Shown piece after piece: positions 35,847-46,496 of a stretch of 64,000 nucleotides of DNA. Under the pieces are notes generated by a model, which saw only the letters and a list, made by a program, of their open reading frames with translations, did not search any database and was not told the origin of the DNA. This DNA comes from Saprospira grandis DSM 2844. Lineage in GTDB: Bacteria > Bacteroidota > Bacteroidia > Chitinophagales > Saprospiraceae. The position numbers were made by a program, and so were the translations under genes. Every line of letters begins with the position of its first letter. The stretch's first letter is position 1. Where the stretch lies: contig NZ_JH719942.1 in assembly GCF_000275825.1 (NCBI RefSeq), positions 1,317,914 through 1,381,913 on the forward strand, given 5' to 3'.

Positions 35847-35849
35847 AAG

Positions 35850-35879
35850 TAAATAATTAACCCTTTAAATAAATAATTA
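35850..35879 (+). repeat. 10-bp direct repeat upstream of the DUF262 gene
   Basis: TAAATAATTA occurs at 35850-35859 and 35870-35879, two helical turns apart, the second touching the ATG. It could be an operator, a remnant of integration, or chance in an AT-rich gap. Confidence 0.45.
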
Positions 35880-37570
35880 TGGCAAACTTAAGTGCGGAGA
35901 GTAAATCGCTTAATGAAGTATTTGGACTTACTTACAAATACGTTATTCCTGCTTACCAAAGGGACTATCAATGGGATTACGATCGTTGCTACACATTATA
36001 TAATGACTTGATAGAAGCCTATTATAAAAGTAAGGATGATTCTGAAGCGCCAAATTACTTTATTGGAAATATAGTTCTTTCAAAAGATAAGTCTCATAAA
36101 GGTTTATATAGAATAATTGATGGTCAACAAAGAATGACAACTATTCTTTTAATGGTGAAATCTATCTATGTTTTAGATCAAGAACTTGAAGGCTTAAAAG
36201 ACTTTTATTTGGTCAATGCTGGAGGCCTTAAAAAAAATAAAAAGGCTCCTCGCTTCACTTATGAAGCAAATCAGAATCAAAGCCTTTTATATGATGTACT
36301 AGAATCTAATGCTACAGATTTTAAAGCTCGTTATGAAGAATGTATAGATGGAAGTAAAAACTCAAGAGAACGAACAAACAACCTAGAACAAAGGTGTACT
36401 AATATTTTTGAAAAAAATTGTTTTCTATTCTATAGTTGGTTTTCTTTCTTAAAAGAAGAGAAAAAAGAAGACTTATCTGAAGTAACTAATTTCATTGTAG
36501 ATCAAGTCATTCTTCTACCTATTTACGTAGACGACAAGGATGCCGAGGATGCAGAACAAAGTGCTATAACCATCTTTGAAACGATTAATAATAGAGGTAT
36601 GAGTCTGCGTGATGCAGATATCTTTCATGCCAAGTTATATGAAAAGGCAAAAAAAATAGGCGAAGAAGATGACTATATGGCAAGATGGGAGAATCTAAAA
36701 CAAGACTGTGAAGAACTTGATATAACTATTGATGACCTTTTTAGATACTACAGTCAAGTCATTCGAGGAAAAGCAAACAATTTTGGTTCAGAAACAGGGC
36801 TACGAGACTTTTTCATAAAAACAAAAAATTCCCCTTTATATAAGACCCCTTACTCAGAAACTGTTGATGCCCTAGAGAAAATTGTTCAGATTATTTTTGC
36901 TCTCAATAAAGCAACGACCCTTGCTGATTCCAGTATAACTCCTTGGCTACAAATAATTGGAGAGTATAGTAACAAATACCCTCAAAATGCTATTGTTGTT
37001 TACTGCTATACCTACGACCTAAAAGATTCTAAAACAATGAGCGATAATGAGAACTTTAAACTCTTTTTACAGGAGCTCATTCGTCGAGTGTTTCGATATG
37101 GTCCTAGCTCAAGTGTAAAACGTGAAATTTATAAAATCGTAGCCACTATTGCTAATGGGAAAAAGCTAGATTACTATTCTGGAGGCACTTTAGAAAAAGA
37201 GGAATTGTTATATCAAGGGAAGTTTTCTAAAACATGGGCCCTTTTAGCCTACTACCTTAACAGTAATAACAGCCTAGTCTTAGAGTATAAACTCGAAAGT
37301 ATTATTGGTAATAAAGATGTGGGATCAAATGGCTGGACTTCTGAGGATGTCCAAGCTGCCAAGGACACTATTGGTAACTATGTTCTAATTACAGGGTCAA
37401 GAAGCTATGCTAACTTCGAAACAAAGTCTAAACGATATTTGAATAAGAAAAACCTCCCCCAAGAGACCCTAGAAGTTTTTCAAAAACCTCTTTTTAAGAA
37501 AAAAGACTTAGAGCAAAGAGATCAAGAACTAAAAACAAGAATCATCAACTTTTATACTAAGCCAAAATAG
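35879..37570 (+). CDS. DUF262 (GmrSD-like) protein with degenerate HNH region
   Basis: 563 residues. The N-terminal DUF262 domain (ParB-like, nucleotide-binding) has YVIPAYQRDYQW at about 19-30, the hallmark IIDGQQRMTT with D81-G82-Q83-Q84-R85, and FETINNRGMSLRDADIFHAKLY. The C-terminal part matches DUF1524 in outline (IGNYVLI, FETKSKRYL, final RDQELKTRIINFY), but where active relatives have a His in E/D-H-I-x-P this protein reads LESIIGN near residue 473, so the nuclease site looks lost. Strongly AT-rich against its neighbours, suggesting transfer. It lies 11 bp before an ATPase gene. GmrSD relatives restrict modified phage DNA; a defence role here is inference. Confidence 0.85.
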   Translation: MANLSAESKSLNEVFGLTYKYVIPAYQRDYQWDYDRCYTLYNDLIEAYYKSKDDSEAPNYFIGNIVLSKDKSHKGLYRIIDGQQRMTTILLMVKSIYVLDQELEGLKDFYLVNAGGLKKNKKAPRFTYEANQNQSLLYDVLESNATDFKARYEECIDGSKNSRERTNNLEQRCTNIFEKNCFLFYSWFSFLKEEKKEDLSEVTNFIVDQVILLPIYVDDKDAEDAEQSAITIFETINNRGMSLRDADIFHAKLYEKAKKIGEEDDYMARWENLKQDCEELDITIDDLFRYYSQVIRGKANNFGSETGLRDFFIKTKNSPLYKTPYSETVDALEKIVQIIFALNKATTLADSSITPWLQIIGEYSNKYPQNAIVVYCYTYDLKDSKTMSDNENFKLFLQELIRRVFRYGPSSSVKREIYKIVATIANGKKLDYYSGGTLEKEELLYQGKFSKTWALLAYYLNSNNSLVLEYKLESIIGNKDVGSNGWTSEDVQAAKDTIGNYVLITGSRSYANFETKSKRYLNKKNLPQETLEVFQKPLFKKKDLEQRDQELKTRIINFYTKPK

Positions 37571-37581
37571 ACCAACACAGC

Positions 37582-39093
37582 ATGTCAACGAATAACTACA
37601 TATCAAAGATAAAAATATGCAACTTTAAGGGGTATAAGGAAAATCCCGAAGACGACAATTATTTCACTTTAGCAATCCCCTATGATGAAAAACCCCACGC
37701 ACTCATTTACGGAGCTAATGGAGCGGGAAAAAGCTCTCTTTATCAAGCAATTAACTACTTCTTCAACTATCAGTCTTTAGCTGACCTATACATGGCCAAC
37801 CAGCCTTCTTTTTCTGAGGAAGAAAAAGAAGCAAGAGACGAAGAGTTTCGACGCAACTTAGTTAATTCAGCTAGTGATAGTACAGAGTTCAACATAGTAC
37901 TTAATGACACGATTGAAAATGCTCATGAATTAGACATTCAAGCATTTTGTTTTGCTCCTTTTGACTTTGAGCTATTTGATTATATTGCCTTCACAGATTT
38001 TGTACAACAGAGCTACCTTCCTCATGATAATGATTTAGATGAATTTTCAAAGGAGCATGCTCCCACTGTTGCAGAAAAAGTAACAGAAGTCCTAAATAAT
38101 CAGTTTCAAGAAAAATCATTAAGTATCAGCTTCAACATTGAGGGAGATTACAACCTAATCGTTAAAGACGCTGATCGATTTCCAAGTGGTATAACCAAAG
38201 ATTTTAAAAACTTTCTTAACGAAGGGAAGCTTAATTTGATTAAGACGCTCTGCATGTTTGAGATTTTTAAAATTTTAAAAAGCAGAGAGAAAACCAACCT
38301 CATTGTCCTTGATGATTTTGTTTCTAGTCTTGACGACATTAACAGAACTGAGTTGCTTCGGTATTTATTTGAACAGGTTCTTGAAGGTAGCCCCGTGATA
38401 CGTTATCAACTTATTATCCTTACTCATCACACTCACTTCTATAATCGAATCAAATTTGCCATCAGTGAGACTTATCCAGAGCATAAATCGAAATGGTCTT
38501 TTTTTAGATTATATGAACACGATAACTACATTAACGCCTTTTCAGAGGACACTATAGATTTTAATAAAGAATTCAACGAATTAAATAAGCGCTTAGAGAG
38601 TCAAGATGCTAATCAATGTCTACCGTCTATTGGAAATGATATTCGAAAACTATCAGAAATAATGGGCTACTTGGTGGCTGAAACGCTTCAGTTATCCCCA
38701 AAAACATCAATAGAAGATATACTACAGCTAAGTAATATTGGTAAAAACCCTTTTTATTTCAAAAGAGAAAGAGTAAACAAAAAAATAGTAACAAAATTAG
38801 CTGTACACTTACTAGAAGACATAAAAGAGCTACTAGAAGACTCAAATCAAAATGAGCTAAAAACTCAACTAGAAGCTAAAATAGCTGAATATCAATCAAC
38901 AGAAAATCTAGAAATAATAGATACTATATTGCAGCAATTTAGACTCATAAAGCTATACAGAAAAGCCGCGCTCCATTCATTATCTCATGGTCAAGTAGAA
39001 GAAGTTAACTATAGTGTATCTAATCTAAAAGCCTCTATAAAAATTTTGAAGGAAGTTAACATTCTTAGAAAAAAGGTAAATAAAAGCAACTAA
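37582..39093 (+). CDS. Compact RecF/SMC-like AAA ATPase, probable defence partner
   Basis: 503 residues. N-terminal IKICNFKGY strand and Walker A GANGAGKSS (residues 44-52), an ABC-like signature FLNEGKLNLIKT (about 211-222), Walker B LIVLDDFVSSLD (about 240-252) and a switch-like LIILTHHTHFYNR. The long coiled-coil arm of SMC/RecN proteins is missing. Residues about 320-503 are helical, with RKAALH (R460, H465), an R-x4-H arrangement as in HEPN RNases but also possible by chance. AT-rich, 11 bp after the DUF262 gene, shares terminator 39102-39139. Likely a two-gene operon; I do not recognise this exact pair as a named system. Confidence 0.85.
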   Translation: MSTNNYISKIKICNFKGYKENPEDDNYFTLAIPYDEKPHALIYGANGAGKSSLYQAINYFFNYQSLADLYMANQPSFSEEEKEARDEEFRRNLVNSASDSTEFNIVLNDTIENAHELDIQAFCFAPFDFELFDYIAFTDFVQQSYLPHDNDLDEFSKEHAPTVAEKVTEVLNNQFQEKSLSISFNIEGDYNLIVKDADRFPSGITKDFKNFLNEGKLNLIKTLCMFEIFKILKSREKTNLIVLDDFVSSLDDINRTELLRYLFEQVLEGSPVIRYQLIILTHHTHFYNRIKFAISETYPEHKSKWSFFRLYEHDNYINAFSEDTIDFNKEFNELNKRLESQDANQCLPSIGNDIRKLSEIMGYLVAETLQLSPKTSIEDILQLSNIGKNPFYFKRERVNKKIVTKLAVHLLEDIKELLEDSNQNELKTQLEAKIAEYQSTENLEIIDTILQQFRLIKLYRKAALHSLSHGQVEEVNYSVSNLKASIKILKEVNILRKKVNKSN

Positions 39094-39101
39094 ACAACCC
39101 C

Positions 39102-39139
39102 AAAACGGCCAGCACGCAAATTTGCGTACTGGCCGTTTT
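39102..39139. terminator. Bidirectional intrinsic terminator closing the DUF262/ATPase cassette
   Basis: An 18-bp stem with one mismatched pair: AAAACGGCCAG, then ACGCAAA/TTTGCGT, then CTGGCCGTTTT. It serves both the cassette and the opposing FKBP gene. Confidence 0.92.
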
Positions 39140-42000: not shown

Positions 42001-42030
42001 TGCGGCTATAAATAGTTATCAGGAAAAATA

Positions 42031-45000
42031 CTATAAAGCTTCCTCAACTATTGCAATCTCTTCCTCGGTTAAACCATATAACTCATAAACCATTTGGTCG
42101 ATCTCATTATCTATTATGGTGATTTTGCTTTGAATAGCTTGAGCTTTTTGCTTCTGTTCCTCAAAATATTGCATCCACTCCGCTTCTTCTCCTAAGCCTA
42201 ATTTTTTGTAGGCTTCACCTTTATCTTTTGCAACTTTTTTTCGGGCTTTTTCTAGTTCTTTCCAGAATTCTGCAAACTCTAATTCATTCCAATGTTGAAG
42301 CTTTTTTGACCCTAGTATTTTAAATTTAGATTCTATTAGGCAAACAAGTCTTTCTTGAATTTCAGACAAAAAGCTTTCTTCTTGTAAGATACTCTCTACA
42401 CTTGTCTTCAGCTCCTTATTTTGAAAACTTTTAGGAATTGGAATATTTAAAATATATTGGCTTTTCAACCTTAAATATCCTCCCCTAGCTTTAACACAAG
42501 TAGTATTAAGAAATACCGTAATTAACTTTGAATTTAAGACTCCTAGTAAGGATTCTGAGTCAGAAGGCAACCCAAAACATGTCATATCATAGTATATTTC
42601 CTTAGCAAAGGTAAAATTGACCGATAAAGATATATCTGGATAAACAATATACTTAGCATGATAAGGAAAGTCCGTTTTTATTTGCTGAAACTCATACCAA
42701 GTTTTTGTCCCTTTCAATATACCTTTATCTATAACAGCCCTTTTAGATAACTTATCTCTATTTTCTTCTAGAAATCTATATTCTTTTTCAAAGACTTTAA
42801 TATTCACTAATTCTAAATTACGACCTCCACTTGTATATGGGATTAAAATTTTATTCTTAGCTATTGCAGGTTTATATCTTTTGACCTCTCTTCCTATCAA
42901 ATAGTTTTGGATTAAAGGAGAACCATCCAAAACTTTAGGTACATCATTAGAAGGAAAAATATAACTTGAATTTGACCCTGTCTTTATACCGACCTGGGGC
43001 TTTGCTACGATTTCAGATAGTGGATTAAAATTCTCTTGAATTCTTTTTAGTAAATTGAATAGCCCTTCATCTGTAGCTCCTGAAGTCCAAGAACCAAGCC
43101 TATCAAATAATTCTGATTGATTAACTTTCAAAGCACCTGAAAATAAATTATCAACCTCTCTATAATTATCATTTGAAACAACAAGAAGTAAAGTTTCTTT
43201 ATTTTTAGAACCCTTCCTCTTGTTATACACAATAACTGACGGATAGGCTATAGCACCATTAAATACATCTAAATCTTGAAAATCAATAAATACAGAAATT
43301 GAAGTTTTCTTTTGTAAAAAGTCGATTAACACTTTTCCATACTTTGTTTTTGTGTATTTACTAGATACAATATACCCACATTCCCCCGAAGAGTTTAATA
43401 TATTAAAAGCATGTTCAAAAAAATACACATATAAATCCGATTTTCCAGTATATACCGAGTATTTAGAATTAAATGCCTGCTTATCCTTTTCAGAAATAAA
43501 TTCATTTCTAACATAAGGCGGGTTCCCGATCACCACATCAAAACCTCCTTGAGCAAAGACTTCGGGAAATTCTTTTTCCCAATTAAATGCTTTATCTCCT
43601 GCAACCTCAGGGTCATCGATTAAGGAGTTTCCACATTTAATATTGTTGTTTAAGCTAGTTAATTTCCGGCCTTTTTGAGCAGTACGCAACCAAAGCGAGA
43701 GTTTGGCAATTTCTACAGATTCATTGTTAATATCTACACCGTATAGATTTTTTTCCAAGATAGAGTTGGCCACATCCGACAGCATCAGCGTTCCTCCTAA
43801 GAGCTTATTTTGGAGTTCATCTACATAATGATGCTCTTCAATCAAAAACTCTAAAGCTTGATTTAAGAAGGCTCCACTTCCACAGGCGGGGTCACAGATA
43901 GTCAAGTCTAGCAACCAATTTCTGTAATCATCCAATTGCTTTTGTAATCGTTCAAGGGTTGCTTTTCGTCTTCCTTTTCTATTTTTCTCAAATTCAGACT
44001 CATCAAGCCCTATAGCTTTCTTTTGCTCTTCGCAAAGTGCGCCTACTGTATTATCTACTATATATTTGGTAATGTATTTGGGCGTATAAAAAACGCCATC
44101 TTTCTTACGCTTCGTCTTAGTTCTATCTATATCTTCGCCTTCTATTTCTGCGGAAATCTCCTCTATTTCATTCAAGGAGTTTTCAAAAATATGGCCTAAG
44201 ATATTAACATCTACATCCGAGTCAAAGTCATAATCACTTAGCTGTTTTGTATGAAAATAAAGTAGATCATCATCTATTTTGATACTGTCTAGAAGCTCAT
44301 CTGGCTTAAATAAGCCTCCGTTATACGCAAATATATCATACTGCCGTCCCTTATGCCCTTTATCTAAATAGCCAAAATACTTTTTGAACCTACTATATAA
44401 TGGAAAATACGCATCTAGTTCATCTTTAAGCATTTTCCATTGATTCAATATTTCATAAGTAGAATTTGGAGGCAGCAAGAGGCGATCTTCAGCAAAGAAG
44501 ATAAACAAAAAGCGATCTAAGAGCTTTTGTGTTTTTTTGAACAGCGTTAGCTTGTCATACTGGGGGTTTAACTCCACAATATTGTTAAAGAGCTTCTGTC
44601 TAAAAGTAGAGTAGTCTTTGTATAGCTTTTTAGTAATTTGTTCCTCTTCCGTCAAAGAGTCATTCTTAATTTGCTTCCCAAGATCTTTAAAGATGTTGTC
44701 CTTGGCTAAAAGCAGCCATAACAAAGCAAAACGTTCAAAGCTTAGGTCAAACAAATAGAATTCTTCAAAATCAATAGCATTATCTATATACAGACGAAGT
44801 TTCTCAAAATTTGAAGTAATAATATATGTTACTCCCTCATGATTATTTTTATATCCAAAAGCTTGGTTCTCTATTTTATTTAAATCAGTTGTCGAAGTTC
44901 CCTTTAGCTCAATAACTCCAATTGGCTTTCCTGCTGACAAAATAGCTCCATCGGCTTTTTTTGCATCTTTTACATTTTTAAGCTCTGTAGTTAAATTATA

Positions 45001-45216
45001 GTTAGGCTCAGGGTTAATGGTATAGCCTAATACTTTTACAAACAATTCCCGAAGAAATCCTTCTTGGAACTGTTCTTCCTTGGACTTTCTAATATTTTCT
45101 TGTCTTTCTACATTGTGGAAGTAAGTTGTAAACTTCTCATAAGCAACTTTGACTTCCTCCTTGCTTTCAATGCTTTTTAGGTACTTCTTTAGTACAGATG
45201 TTTGGAATAAGGGCAT
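42031..45216 (-). CDS. Type IIG restriction enzyme / N6-adenine methyltransferase
   Basis: 1061 residues, Eco57I-like single-chain architecture. The N-terminal nuclease region carries D89 and ELK (E103-x-K105), fitting a PD-(D/E)xK site. A helical linker follows, then the methyltransferase with DPACGSGAFLNQAL (about 438-450, SAM binding) and VIGNPPYVRNEF (NPPY near 562, base flipping and catalysis). The last 350 residues resemble a TaqI-type target-recognition domain (LRLKSQYILNIPIPKSF) plus a terminal coiled coil. It should both modify and cut one asymmetric site; specificity not predictable. AT-rich, so probably acquired. An IS lies 9 bp before the ATG and has replaced its native upstream region. 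Confidence 0.92.
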   Translation of the reverse strand: MPLFQTSVLKKYLKSIESKEEVKVAYEKFTTYFHNVERQENIRKSKEEQFQEGFLRELFVKVLGYTINPEPNYNLTTELKNVKDAKKADGAILSAGKPIGVIELKGTSTTDLNKIENQAFGYKNNHEGVTYIITSNFEKLRLYIDNAIDFEEFYLFDLSFERFALLWLLLAKDNIFKDLGKQIKNDSLTEEEQITKKLYKDYSTFRQKLFNNIVELNPQYDKLTLFKKTQKLLDRFLFIFFAEDRLLLPPNSTYEILNQWKMLKDELDAYFPLYSRFKKYFGYLDKGHKGRQYDIFAYNGGLFKPDELLDSIKIDDDLLYFHTKQLSDYDFDSDVDVNILGHIFENSLNEIEEISAEIEGEDIDRTKTKRKKDGVFYTPKYITKYIVDNTVGALCEEQKKAIGLDESEFEKNRKGRRKATLERLQKQLDDYRNWLLDLTICDPACGSGAFLNQALEFLIEEHHYVDELQNKLLGGTLMLSDVANSILEKNLYGVDINNESVEIAKLSLWLRTAQKGRKLTSLNNNIKCGNSLIDDPEVAGDKAFNWEKEFPEVFAQGGFDVVIGNPPYVRNEFISEKDKQAFNSKYSVYTGKSDLYVYFFEHAFNILNSSGECGYIVSSKYTKTKYGKVLIDFLQKKTSISVFIDFQDLDVFNGAIAYPSVIVYNKRKGSKNKETLLLVVSNDNYREVDNLFSGALKVNQSELFDRLGSWTSGATDEGLFNLLKRIQENFNPLSEIVAKPQVGIKTGSNSSYIFPSNDVPKVLDGSPLIQNYLIGREVKRYKPAIAKNKILIPYTSGGRNLELVNIKVFEKEYRFLEENRDKLSKRAVIDKGILKGTKTWYEFQQIKTDFPYHAKYIVYPDISLSVNFTFAKEIYYDMTCFGLPSDSESLLGVLNSKLITVFLNTTCVKARGGYLRLKSQYILNIPIPKSFQNKELKTSVESILQEESFLSEIQERLVCLIESKFKILGSKKLQHWNELEFAEFWKELEKARKKVAKDKGEAYKKLGLGEEAEWMQYFEEQKQKAQAIQSKITIIDNEIDQMVYELYGLTEEEIAIVEEAL

Positions 45217-45225
45217 AATTTTATT

Positions 45226-46155
45226 GAGTTTGTTTAAAAATTTCGTTTTAGGAAAATAAGTATAAAGGCTAAATAGTGTAGACTCGCCCAGTTGTCGGCT
45301 TTTCTTTCAAAACGAATGAGTAAAATTTTGAATGCGTCAATCCATGCGTTAGTTCGCTCAACAGAAAAGCGTTCTTTGTAAAGTTCCTCATCTATAATAT
45401 CTTGATAATAAGCTTTTTTTCTATTTCTTTTGTTGTGGTCAATATTAGGGATAATGCCCATTTTTTGGCAGTTTTCTCTAAGTTTTTTGCTATCAAACCC
45501 TGCATCAGCATTCATAAATAAACCATCAGGAGAGATGTCTGAAAGCTGCAGATCGGCAAGCATTTTTTGGAAATGACTCTCGATTTCAAACAAATCATTA
45601 TGGTTTCCCGCAAAAGGCGGAGACATAGCGATTGGCAGCCCATTTTTATCTGTGAGAAAGAGAGCATTTGTGGTTTTGGACTTTTTTCGGCCCTGATAAC
45701 CCACAGCTTCGCCCCCTCTTTTCGCTGGGGTATGACTTCCGTCAAGCTGTATACTAGATAAATCTAAACAAGATTTTTCATGGGCTAGAAATTGGATCCA
45801 CACTTTTTGCCAAATACCAGACTCGGACCAGCTATTGAAGTAGTAATATACTGTTTGCCAGCAAATTAGAACTTCGTCAAAAAAAGATTGTATCGGTAAT
45901 TCTCTCCACTGACAACCTGTTTTAAGCCTATAAATTATCGCTTTAACAATTTGCCACAGAGGCGCTTTGGTTTTTCGAGCCAATTTTTTTTCGGGAAAAA
46001 ATGCTAATATTTTTTCCGTAATAAATTCTTTTGATAAATTCACAACCATGTTGCAAAGCCTTTTTTTGTTTTTGTCGTAATCAACAATAATAAGCGCTTT
46101 GCAGCATTTTTTTTTGCCTTAGTCTAGCTGCTGACTAAAAAATTTAAACAAGCTC
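45226..46155 (-). mobile_element. Complete IS5-type insertion sequence
   Basis: About 930 bp, bounded by imperfect terminal inverted repeats: left end GAGTTTGTTTAAA and right end, reverse complemented, GAGCTTGTTTAAA. Flanking ATT at 45223-45225 and ATT at 46156-46158 may be a 3-bp target duplication, which would suit the ISL2-like subgroup. It carries one intact transposase gene and looks recent. The left repeat contains the transposase stop codon. The ends were set by eye and could be off by one or two bases. Confidence 0.85.
45234..46049 (-). CDS. IS5 family DDE transposase
   Basis: 271 residues in a single uninterrupted frame. N-terminal helical DNA-binding domain of the DUF4096 type (LWQIVKAIIYRLKTGCQWRELP), then a DDE catalytic core: first Asp in SSIQLDGSHTPAKRGGEAVGYQ, second in MNADAGFDSKKLRENC, and Glu in ERFSVERTNAWIDAFKILLIRFER (the Y/F-x-x-E-R-x form). 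It cuts and joins the IS ends. No frameshift or truncation, so the element is probably still active. The only mobile-element gene in the window, and unrelated in sequence to the 19 intergenic repeats. Confidence 0.93.
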   Translation of the reverse strand: MVVNLSKEFITEKILAFFPEKKLARKTKAPLWQIVKAIIYRLKTGCQWRELPIQSFFDEVLICWQTVYYYFNSWSESGIWQKVWIQFLAHEKSCLDLSSIQLDGSHTPAKRGGEAVGYQGRKKSKTTNALFLTDKNGLPIAMSPPFAGNHNDLFEIESHFQKMLADLQLSDISPDGLFMNADAGFDSKKLRENCQKMGIIPNIDHNKRNRKKAYYQDIIDEELYKERFSVERTNAWIDAFKILLIRFERKADNWASLHYLAFILIFLKRNF

Positions 46156-46292
46156 ATTTTAATAGTTACTATCCTAGCAGCTGAAAATACATTTTTTTTG
46201 ATTCCTTAGCCTATGATTTAATTCAAAAAAATGAGCCCGCAAACCAAATTTTAAATCTTGGCCAGCCGCAGTTTCTGCGCCCTGGCCTTTTT

Positions 46293-46441
46293 GCGGCCTT
46301 TGGCCGCCTTTTCTGGCTGAGGGATAGTAGCGGGTGGCCCACAGGGCCAGACCCAGCTTTTGAGCATAGCGAAAAAGCGCAGGGCCGAGCGAACAGCGAG
46401 CCCGCGCATAGCCCGACCCGCCCGCAGGGCGGGGCAGCCCC
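46293..46441 (-). repeat. Stem-variable intergenic element E12 (type B end)
   Basis: Minus-strand reading: GGGGCTGCCCC, CGCCC-TGC-GGGCG, GGTCGGGCTATG, GGGCTCGC, CTCGGCCCTG, GCTTTT/AAAAGC slot-2 hairpin, GGGTCTG, GGCCC-TGT-GGGCC, CTATCCCTCAGCC, terminal GCGGCC-AAA-GGCCGC. Lies between the IS and the fatty-acid oxidation gene; the rest of 46156-46532 has no gene. Confidence 0.88.
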
Positions 46442-46448
46442 AAAAAAG

Positions 46449-46496
46449 AAAAGCCCTTAAAGAAAATTCTAGTAGATAGGAGCATTAAAGGCTTTT
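46449..46496. terminator. Terminator-like hairpin before the fatty-acid oxidation gene
   Basis: AAAAGCC-C-TTAA pairs with TTAA-A-GGCTTTT across a 24-nt loop and is followed by TTTT, 37 bp before the ATG. It could shield the gene from readthrough. Confidence 0.5.

Follow-up and report, generated by a model that had tools for sequence, protein, structure and literature searches.

A conserved pair of a DUF262 protein with a degenerate HNH centre and an ABC ATPase with a PrrC/RloC-like triad: a candidate phage defence module in Saprospira grandis

What are two AT-rich genes doing side by side between pyk and an FKBP gene of Saprospira grandis DSM 2844, and do their products work together? Here we address this question in a stretch of 64,000 nucleotides from contig NZ_JH719942.1 (the window, from whose first letter positions are counted). 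The first gene (p1, 35879-37570, + strand) encodes a 563-aa DUF262/GmrSD_N protein with a degenerate, HNH-dead GmrSD_C domain, and the second (p2, 37582-39093, + strand) encodes a 503-aa RecF/Rad50-like ABC ATPase with a C-terminal triad domain; an 11 bp gap (37571-37581, + strand) separates them. A previous sequence-only reading had described two genes 11 bp apart and far richer in AT than their neighbours, and both points hold, with GC contents of 33.6% for p1 and 33.5% for p2, compared with 46.8% in pyk and 46.4% in the FKBP gene.

The cassette is an insert (35847-39101, ends approximate, no strand), since three genomes of the same genus (G001, G002 and G005, flanks 89-94% identical) lack it at the pyk/FKBP site, where ∼35 bp and the terminator are all that separates pyk from the FKBP gene. 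Insertion took place downstream of the pyk stop codon but ahead of the terminator that belongs to pyk. The terminator that the sequence-only reading assigned jointly to p1 and p2 is a real hairpin (39102-39139, + strand, −25.4 kcal/mol, z −6.2) but not the cassette's own; it is ancestral to the pyk locus, is found as the pyk/FKBP terminator in the three cassette-less relatives, and now closes the cassette because the latter landed upstream of it. As p1 starts 32 bp past the pyk stop, transcripts of pyk may read through into the cassette. Neither an integrase nor direct or terminal repeats were found at the insertion ends in the window. A second AT-rich island (42007-46255, 33% GC), 3 kb downstream of the cassette, holds genes for a 1061-aa Eco57I/TaqI_C-type methylase-nuclease (42031-45216) and an IS5-type transposase (45234-46049), and both islands are missing from the same three genomes. 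The IS5-type element has ∼20 near-identical copies across the genome (G000), and a ∼130-bp repeat (about 46313-46455) is repeated a great many times in those genomes of the genus that are well assembled.

The earlier description of p1 as a DUF262/GmrSD-type sensor is borne out as far as DUF262 goes, but it missed a degenerate HNH centre that is common to the p1 proteins of all modules. PF03235 (GmrSD_N) matches p1 with an E-value of 3e-32 and is present in all 14 module p1 proteins, i.e. that of the window and those of the 13 relatives introduced below; PF07510 (GmrSD_C) reaches only 17 bits in p1, below its cut-off, and gives no match at 1e-3 in any of the 14. The ParB-type NTPase motif D81-G-Q-Q-R85 (36119-36133, + strand) is invariant in 14/14, and the P-x-YQR-x-Y-x-W motif of p1 is intact. 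At the site of the lost HNH histidine, residues 470-477 (37286-37309, + strand) read YKLESIIG against a comparator consensus of xx[IV]EH[IV][LF]P. None of the 14 module proteins keeps this histidine, having S, K, R, Q or N instead, compared with 17 of 18 DUF262 comparators that do, and the second HNH asparagine is likewise lost in all 14. The sole degenerate comparator (His to Gln) is encoded on an Entomospira plasmid (L038, 445-2298); it is sister to the module p1 clade and has no adjacent p2 in the stretch seen.

The AlphaFold (AF2) model of p1 (pLDDT 79.8) matches SspE, DndI and BrxU in fold over its full length (Z 12-17), and DndI (9JFL) is also its best PDB sequence match (E 1.5e-16). Defence by DndI requires both the NTPase arginine and the HNH asparagine, and R87A, in the motif equivalent to DGQQR, abolishes ATPase activity and defence (PMC11662687). 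Because p1 has kept DGQQR and lost the HNH centre, both of which DndI needs, its sequence suggests that it should retain the NTPase switch yet no longer cut DNA.

The second protein had been read as a compact RecF-like ATPase. It is an ATPase, and the motifs IIDGQQR in p1 and GANGAGKSS and LNEGK in p2 are all present in the translations as claimed, but "compact RecF" is too narrow a description for a protein that carries a triad domain beyond its head. Profile matches of p2 are to SMC_N (1.6e-11) and AAA_13 (3.6e-10); an assignment to RecF itself was rejected on a TIGR00611 score of 37.7 bits against a cut-off of 172. In the AF2 model (38 sequences, pLDDT 83.8, pTM 0.81), residues 4-324 match a Rad50/SMC/RecF-type head (fold search, Z up to 18). 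Walker A, signature, Walker B and the H-loop region are invariant among p2 relatives: the + strand encodes Walker A GANGAGKSS at residues 44-52 (37711-37737), the signature region FLNEGK at 212-217 (38215-38232; N213 and E214 invariant in 38/38) and Walker B with the D-loop, VLDDFVSSLD, at 242-251 (38305-38334; D244, D245 and D251 invariant in 38/38). These counts refer to an alignment of the 14 module members and 24 wider relatives, in which, apart from ATPase residues, the sole invariant columns are T281, W305 and, further on, R355, E359 and H469.

The last three residues make up a putative RNase triad, encoded on the + strand as Arg355-x3-Glu359 (38644-38658) and His465-x-x-Ser468-His469 (38974-38988). 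S468 is present in most of the 38 sequences, and H465 in 13 of the 14 module members versus asparagine in all 24 wider relatives; the Glu-to-His spacer is 94-111 residues in modules and mostly 57-69, up to 98, in wider relatives. The anticodon nuclease triad of RloC, common to PrrC, is Arg-X3-Glu-X36-52-His, often with Ser before His, and alanine at any of its residues abolishes RloC activity (Davidov and Kaufmann 2008, PMC2610378). Aligned over its full length with 10 RloC-type proteins using hhalign, p2 scores Prob 99.2 (E 3e-18), with R-x3-E in register with RR[IL][IL]E of RloC. When only the C-terminal domains are compared, p2 and RloC show no significant match (Prob 0.1-1.0), and we thus regard the triad, at the level of sequence, as a strong motif match to the PrrC/RloC type rather than as proven domain homology. 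The fold search with whole p2 covered the ATPase head only, residues 325-503 being outside its reach, and lists no RNase fold. A candidate catalytic HEPN Rx4-6H motif (RKAALH in window p2) was dropped, its arginine not being conserved in module relatives.

To what extent do the two genes belong together? The family was reached from p2 via a weak Bacteroidota relative and needed alignment with methylase-linked ATPases; a scan of 84,980 species genomes, seeded with the ATPase only as an alignment of five family members (A1), then found 144 ATPase relatives, of which the best 80 were retained. The top 13 of these 80 range from E 1e-42 to 8e-13, with the following match at 4e-10, and belong to Bacteroidota, Campylobacterota-type MAGs and an Erysipelotrichaceae MAG. 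In every one of the 13 the gene immediately preceding the ATPase gene, in the same orientation, encodes a p1 relative, with −44 to +6 bp from p1 stop to p2 start, although two pairs of near-identical loci (L082/L084 and L075/L077) reduce the independent modules to ∼11. None of the 67 weaker loci among the best 80 of 144 has a p1-type DUF262 gene upstream; one of them, L096, has a canonical DUF262 gene downstream. As the 13 loci were retrieved with ATPase patterns only and adjacency was not selected for, the pairing is not due to chance. Conserved co-occurrence, the check that the sequence-only reading had proposed, is thus found in 13/13, and its converse, homologues never adjacent elsewhere, did not occur.

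Identity to the window proteins is 27-38% for p1 relatives and 21-29% for p2 relatives, the module p1 and p2 clades are both monophyletic (support 0.99 and 1.0, respectively), and the p1 and p2 distances correlate in a mirror-tree comparison (r 0.90, reached by 0/5000 permutations). The module is present in one of 395 Bacteroidota genomes, that one being the window's own; a search with p2 alone found no close relatives on plasmids, phages, viral contigs or genome contigs, no module was among the matches on viral contigs, and lone DUF262 genes on plasmids had no p2 alongside. The evidence supports a horizontally acquired two-gene cassette that is conserved as a pair, and p1-p2 is a previously unnamed, strictly conserved gene pair.

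The sequence-only reading named no system with exactly these two parts, and a check against PADLOC agrees: neither gene is fully covered by any of its models, and no system has models that match both genes full-length (HEC-06, Orf5, PDC-S06, Septu and PARIS compared), the listed p1 matches covering mainly residues 3-340 (HEC-06, Orf5) and the p2 matches being weak and partial (mad3, PDC-S06, AriA, PtuA). No Nsn model matches the p1 protein of L075 at E 1e-7, and NsnB matches window p2 weakly (2.9e-5). With DndI, SspE, BrxU and GmrSD, p1 has in common its predicted overall fold and the DGQQR and P-x-YQR motifs, but it differs in having lost the HNH His and second Asn and in always being paired with p2; the active DUF1524 HNH (xEH[IV]xP) that is the criterion for GmrSD type IV enzymes is absent from it. 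PrrC, which is linked to the type I R-M enzyme EcoprrI, is likewise an ABC ATPase with a C-terminal Arg-x3-Glu...His centre, encoded with a restriction-type protein that, in the case of p2 too, is probably its guard; here, however, the guard would be a nuclease-dead DUF262 protein in place of the HsdRMS complex, and with Glu-to-His spacers of 109 in p2 and 31 in PrrC the C-terminal likeness is at motif level. RloC (AAA_13 family) resembles p2 in its full-length profile, the register of R-x3-E and Ser before His, whereas p2 has neither a coiled coil nor a CXXC zinc hook (the RloC comparators carry a C[PR]FC hook, and p2 no such insert), is 503 rather than about 740 aa long, and is strictly paired with p1.

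PD-T4-2 (DUF262 + HEPN) and Menshen (DUF262 + OLD nuclease; PMC10952713), the former tested as a defence system (PMC9519451), also combine a DUF262 protein lacking an active DUF1524 with a putative nuclease partner, and show that DUF262 proteins without DUF1524 do partner nucleases in proven defence systems. In our pair the putative effector instead combines an ABC ATPase and a triad domain in one protein. The p2 matches include no TOPRIM model. Septu and PtuAB of retron Eco7, which depletes tRNA-Tyr (PMC11555353), also consist of an ATPase and an HNH-fold partner, but in p1 the HNH is dead and forms part of a GmrSD-like protein, and the match of window p2 to the best PtuA model is limited to residues 6-62 (1.5e-5). 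SMC_N proteins were found enriched near GmrSD genes in a 2015 survey (PMC4619093); in the openly accessible literature we found no description of the pair, the dead HNH or the triad in p2. The loss of the HNH centre in all 14 p1 proteins and the Arg-x3-Glu...(Ser)His triad of p2 are new here.

Taken together, the protein families and gene neighbourhoods make a role in phage defence likely. In PrrC the linked R-M enzyme keeps the nuclease silent until a phage disables that enzyme (PMC3710099), and by analogy p1 would restrain p2 until infection sets it free. The sequences themselves show the conserved pairing, the intact NTPase and ATPase motifs, the lost HNH centre and the invariant triad; that p1 and p2 form a complex, what triggers it, that RNA is the substrate and that the pair defends the cell are inferred, as follows. 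In the uninfected cell p1 and p2 would form a complex in which p2 is silent; infection would alter a p1 ligand, candidates for which are DNA carrying modifications or phosphorothioate marks, the level of nucleotides and an anti-restriction protein; the p1 NTPase would then switch conformation, and p2 would engage as a dimer with ATP bound and use its C-terminal domain to cut RNA, most likely tRNA, such that translation halts and the phage is not propagated. By this analogy we give about even credence to an abortive-infection module with p1 as nuclease-dead sensor or guard and p2 as ATP-driven RNA-cutting effector. More tentatively, the pair may be a guarded anticodon nuclease in which a compact PrrC-like effector is guarded by a nuclease-dead GmrSD protein instead of the restriction enzyme; the R-E-H domain of this effector would also occur in the large methylase-linked ATPase family.

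In favour of the abortive-infection reading we count the 13/13 pairing, the coupling of the genes, the mirror-tree correlation, the lost HNH, the invariant triad, the RloC profile match, the PD-T4-2 and Menshen precedents and several neighbours: modules L082 and L084 lie downstream of HsdM and HsdS genes, L079 adjoins Vsr and a cytosine methylase, and L074 adjoins a YhcG nuclease gene (L078 adjoins a gene for a DUF5131 protein). Against it stand the mismatch of the C-terminal domain with that of RloC, a spacer of 94-111 versus 36-52 residues, the non-conserved HEPN arginine, and the position of several modules (window, L076, L085) alone among housekeeping genes, outside defence islands.

The main rival is a type IV-like DNA restriction system in which p1 reads modified phage DNA and p2 clamps or cuts it as a DNase, the cell surviving. 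The nearest solved relatives of p1 (DndI, SspE and BrxU) all act on modified DNA, the p2 head is closest to Rad50/SMC, and the PT-sensing residues P23, Y25 and Q26 of DndI are conserved in p1 as P24, Y26 and Q27. However, the P-x-[YF]Q residues are shared by every DUF262 comparator and have no discriminating value, the DNA-cutting centre of p1 is lost in every member, and the p2 triad resembles an RNase centre and not a known DNase motif, so that we consider this explanation unlikely. A toxin-antitoxin or element-stability module, in which p1 neutralises a toxic p2 and any effect on phage is incidental, would fit the antitoxin-first gene order with translational coupling, the frequent occurrence as a lone insertion among core genes, and the toxicity of RloC when expressed alone (PMC2610378). 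It is nonetheless less likely still, as p1 is a large NTPase sensor of a family used for defence, and plasmids, phages and viral contigs, on which addiction modules tend to be frequent, yielded no copy of the module.

It is improbable that p1 serves as an alternative reader of host Dnd phosphorothioate (PT) modification, in place of DndI or DndFGH. Besides the match to DndI, DndC occurs in 4 of the 14 module genomes compared with 8 of 296 in a Bacteroidota sample (Fisher p 0.0007) and 2 of 34 genomes that encode the sister ATPases. On the other hand, defence genes co-accumulate in general, DndC was not seen in the remaining 10 module genomes (some being incomplete MAGs), the window has no dnd genes beside the pair, and dndD of its own genome appears broken by insertion sequences. 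In that locus (L184, 10328-16647; G000:C2 about 2798300-2804600) dndC is followed by an apparently split, partly duplicated dndD, the split surrounding a copy of the window's IS5-type transposase. With most module genomes lacking DndC and the host's dndD seemingly interrupted, PT is at best one candidate trigger. Finally, a RecF-like DNA repair or replication pair with no defence role, to which the weak TIGR00611 match could point, is very improbable for a strain-specific insert found in 1/395 Bacteroidota genomes with a DUF262 partner and an extra C-terminal triad domain.

Returning to the abortive-infection reading, the p2 triad extends to a wider family of ABC ATPases of 480-660 aa (L087-L153, L050, L052-L054, L056 and L058). 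These share the ATPase with p2 and have an R-x3-E...[N]xx[S]H triad that does not vary among the 24 members aligned, but they differ from p2 in having N instead of H at −4 from the triad His and in mostly lying directly downstream of a large N6-methylase gene rather than of a DUF262 gene; an N6-methylase gene (NPPY motif) is upstream in 35/54. In Fusobacteriaceae locus L096 (2169-9127), a methylase, a triad ATPase and a DUF262 protein with an intact EHILP are encoded consecutively, a possible intermediate between the two types, and at L049 (2422-7086) a gene for an RloC-type protein with a CPFC hook precedes a canonical DUF262-HNH gene of the same orientation by ∼690 bp. In many defence loci built around methylases, the wider family may be an unrecognised RNase effector.

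DUF262 proteins are common in defence islands, where their role is mostly unexplained. The p1-p2 pair offers a clean case in which sensing has been split from cutting, with the nuclease half dead and its task apparently taken over by a dedicated partner. If p2 cuts tRNA, the guarding of PrrC-type nucleases by restriction machinery would be a design that recurs rather than an isolated curiosity. The pair also suggests that the ATPases behind many large N6-methylases may carry a hidden suicide RNase.
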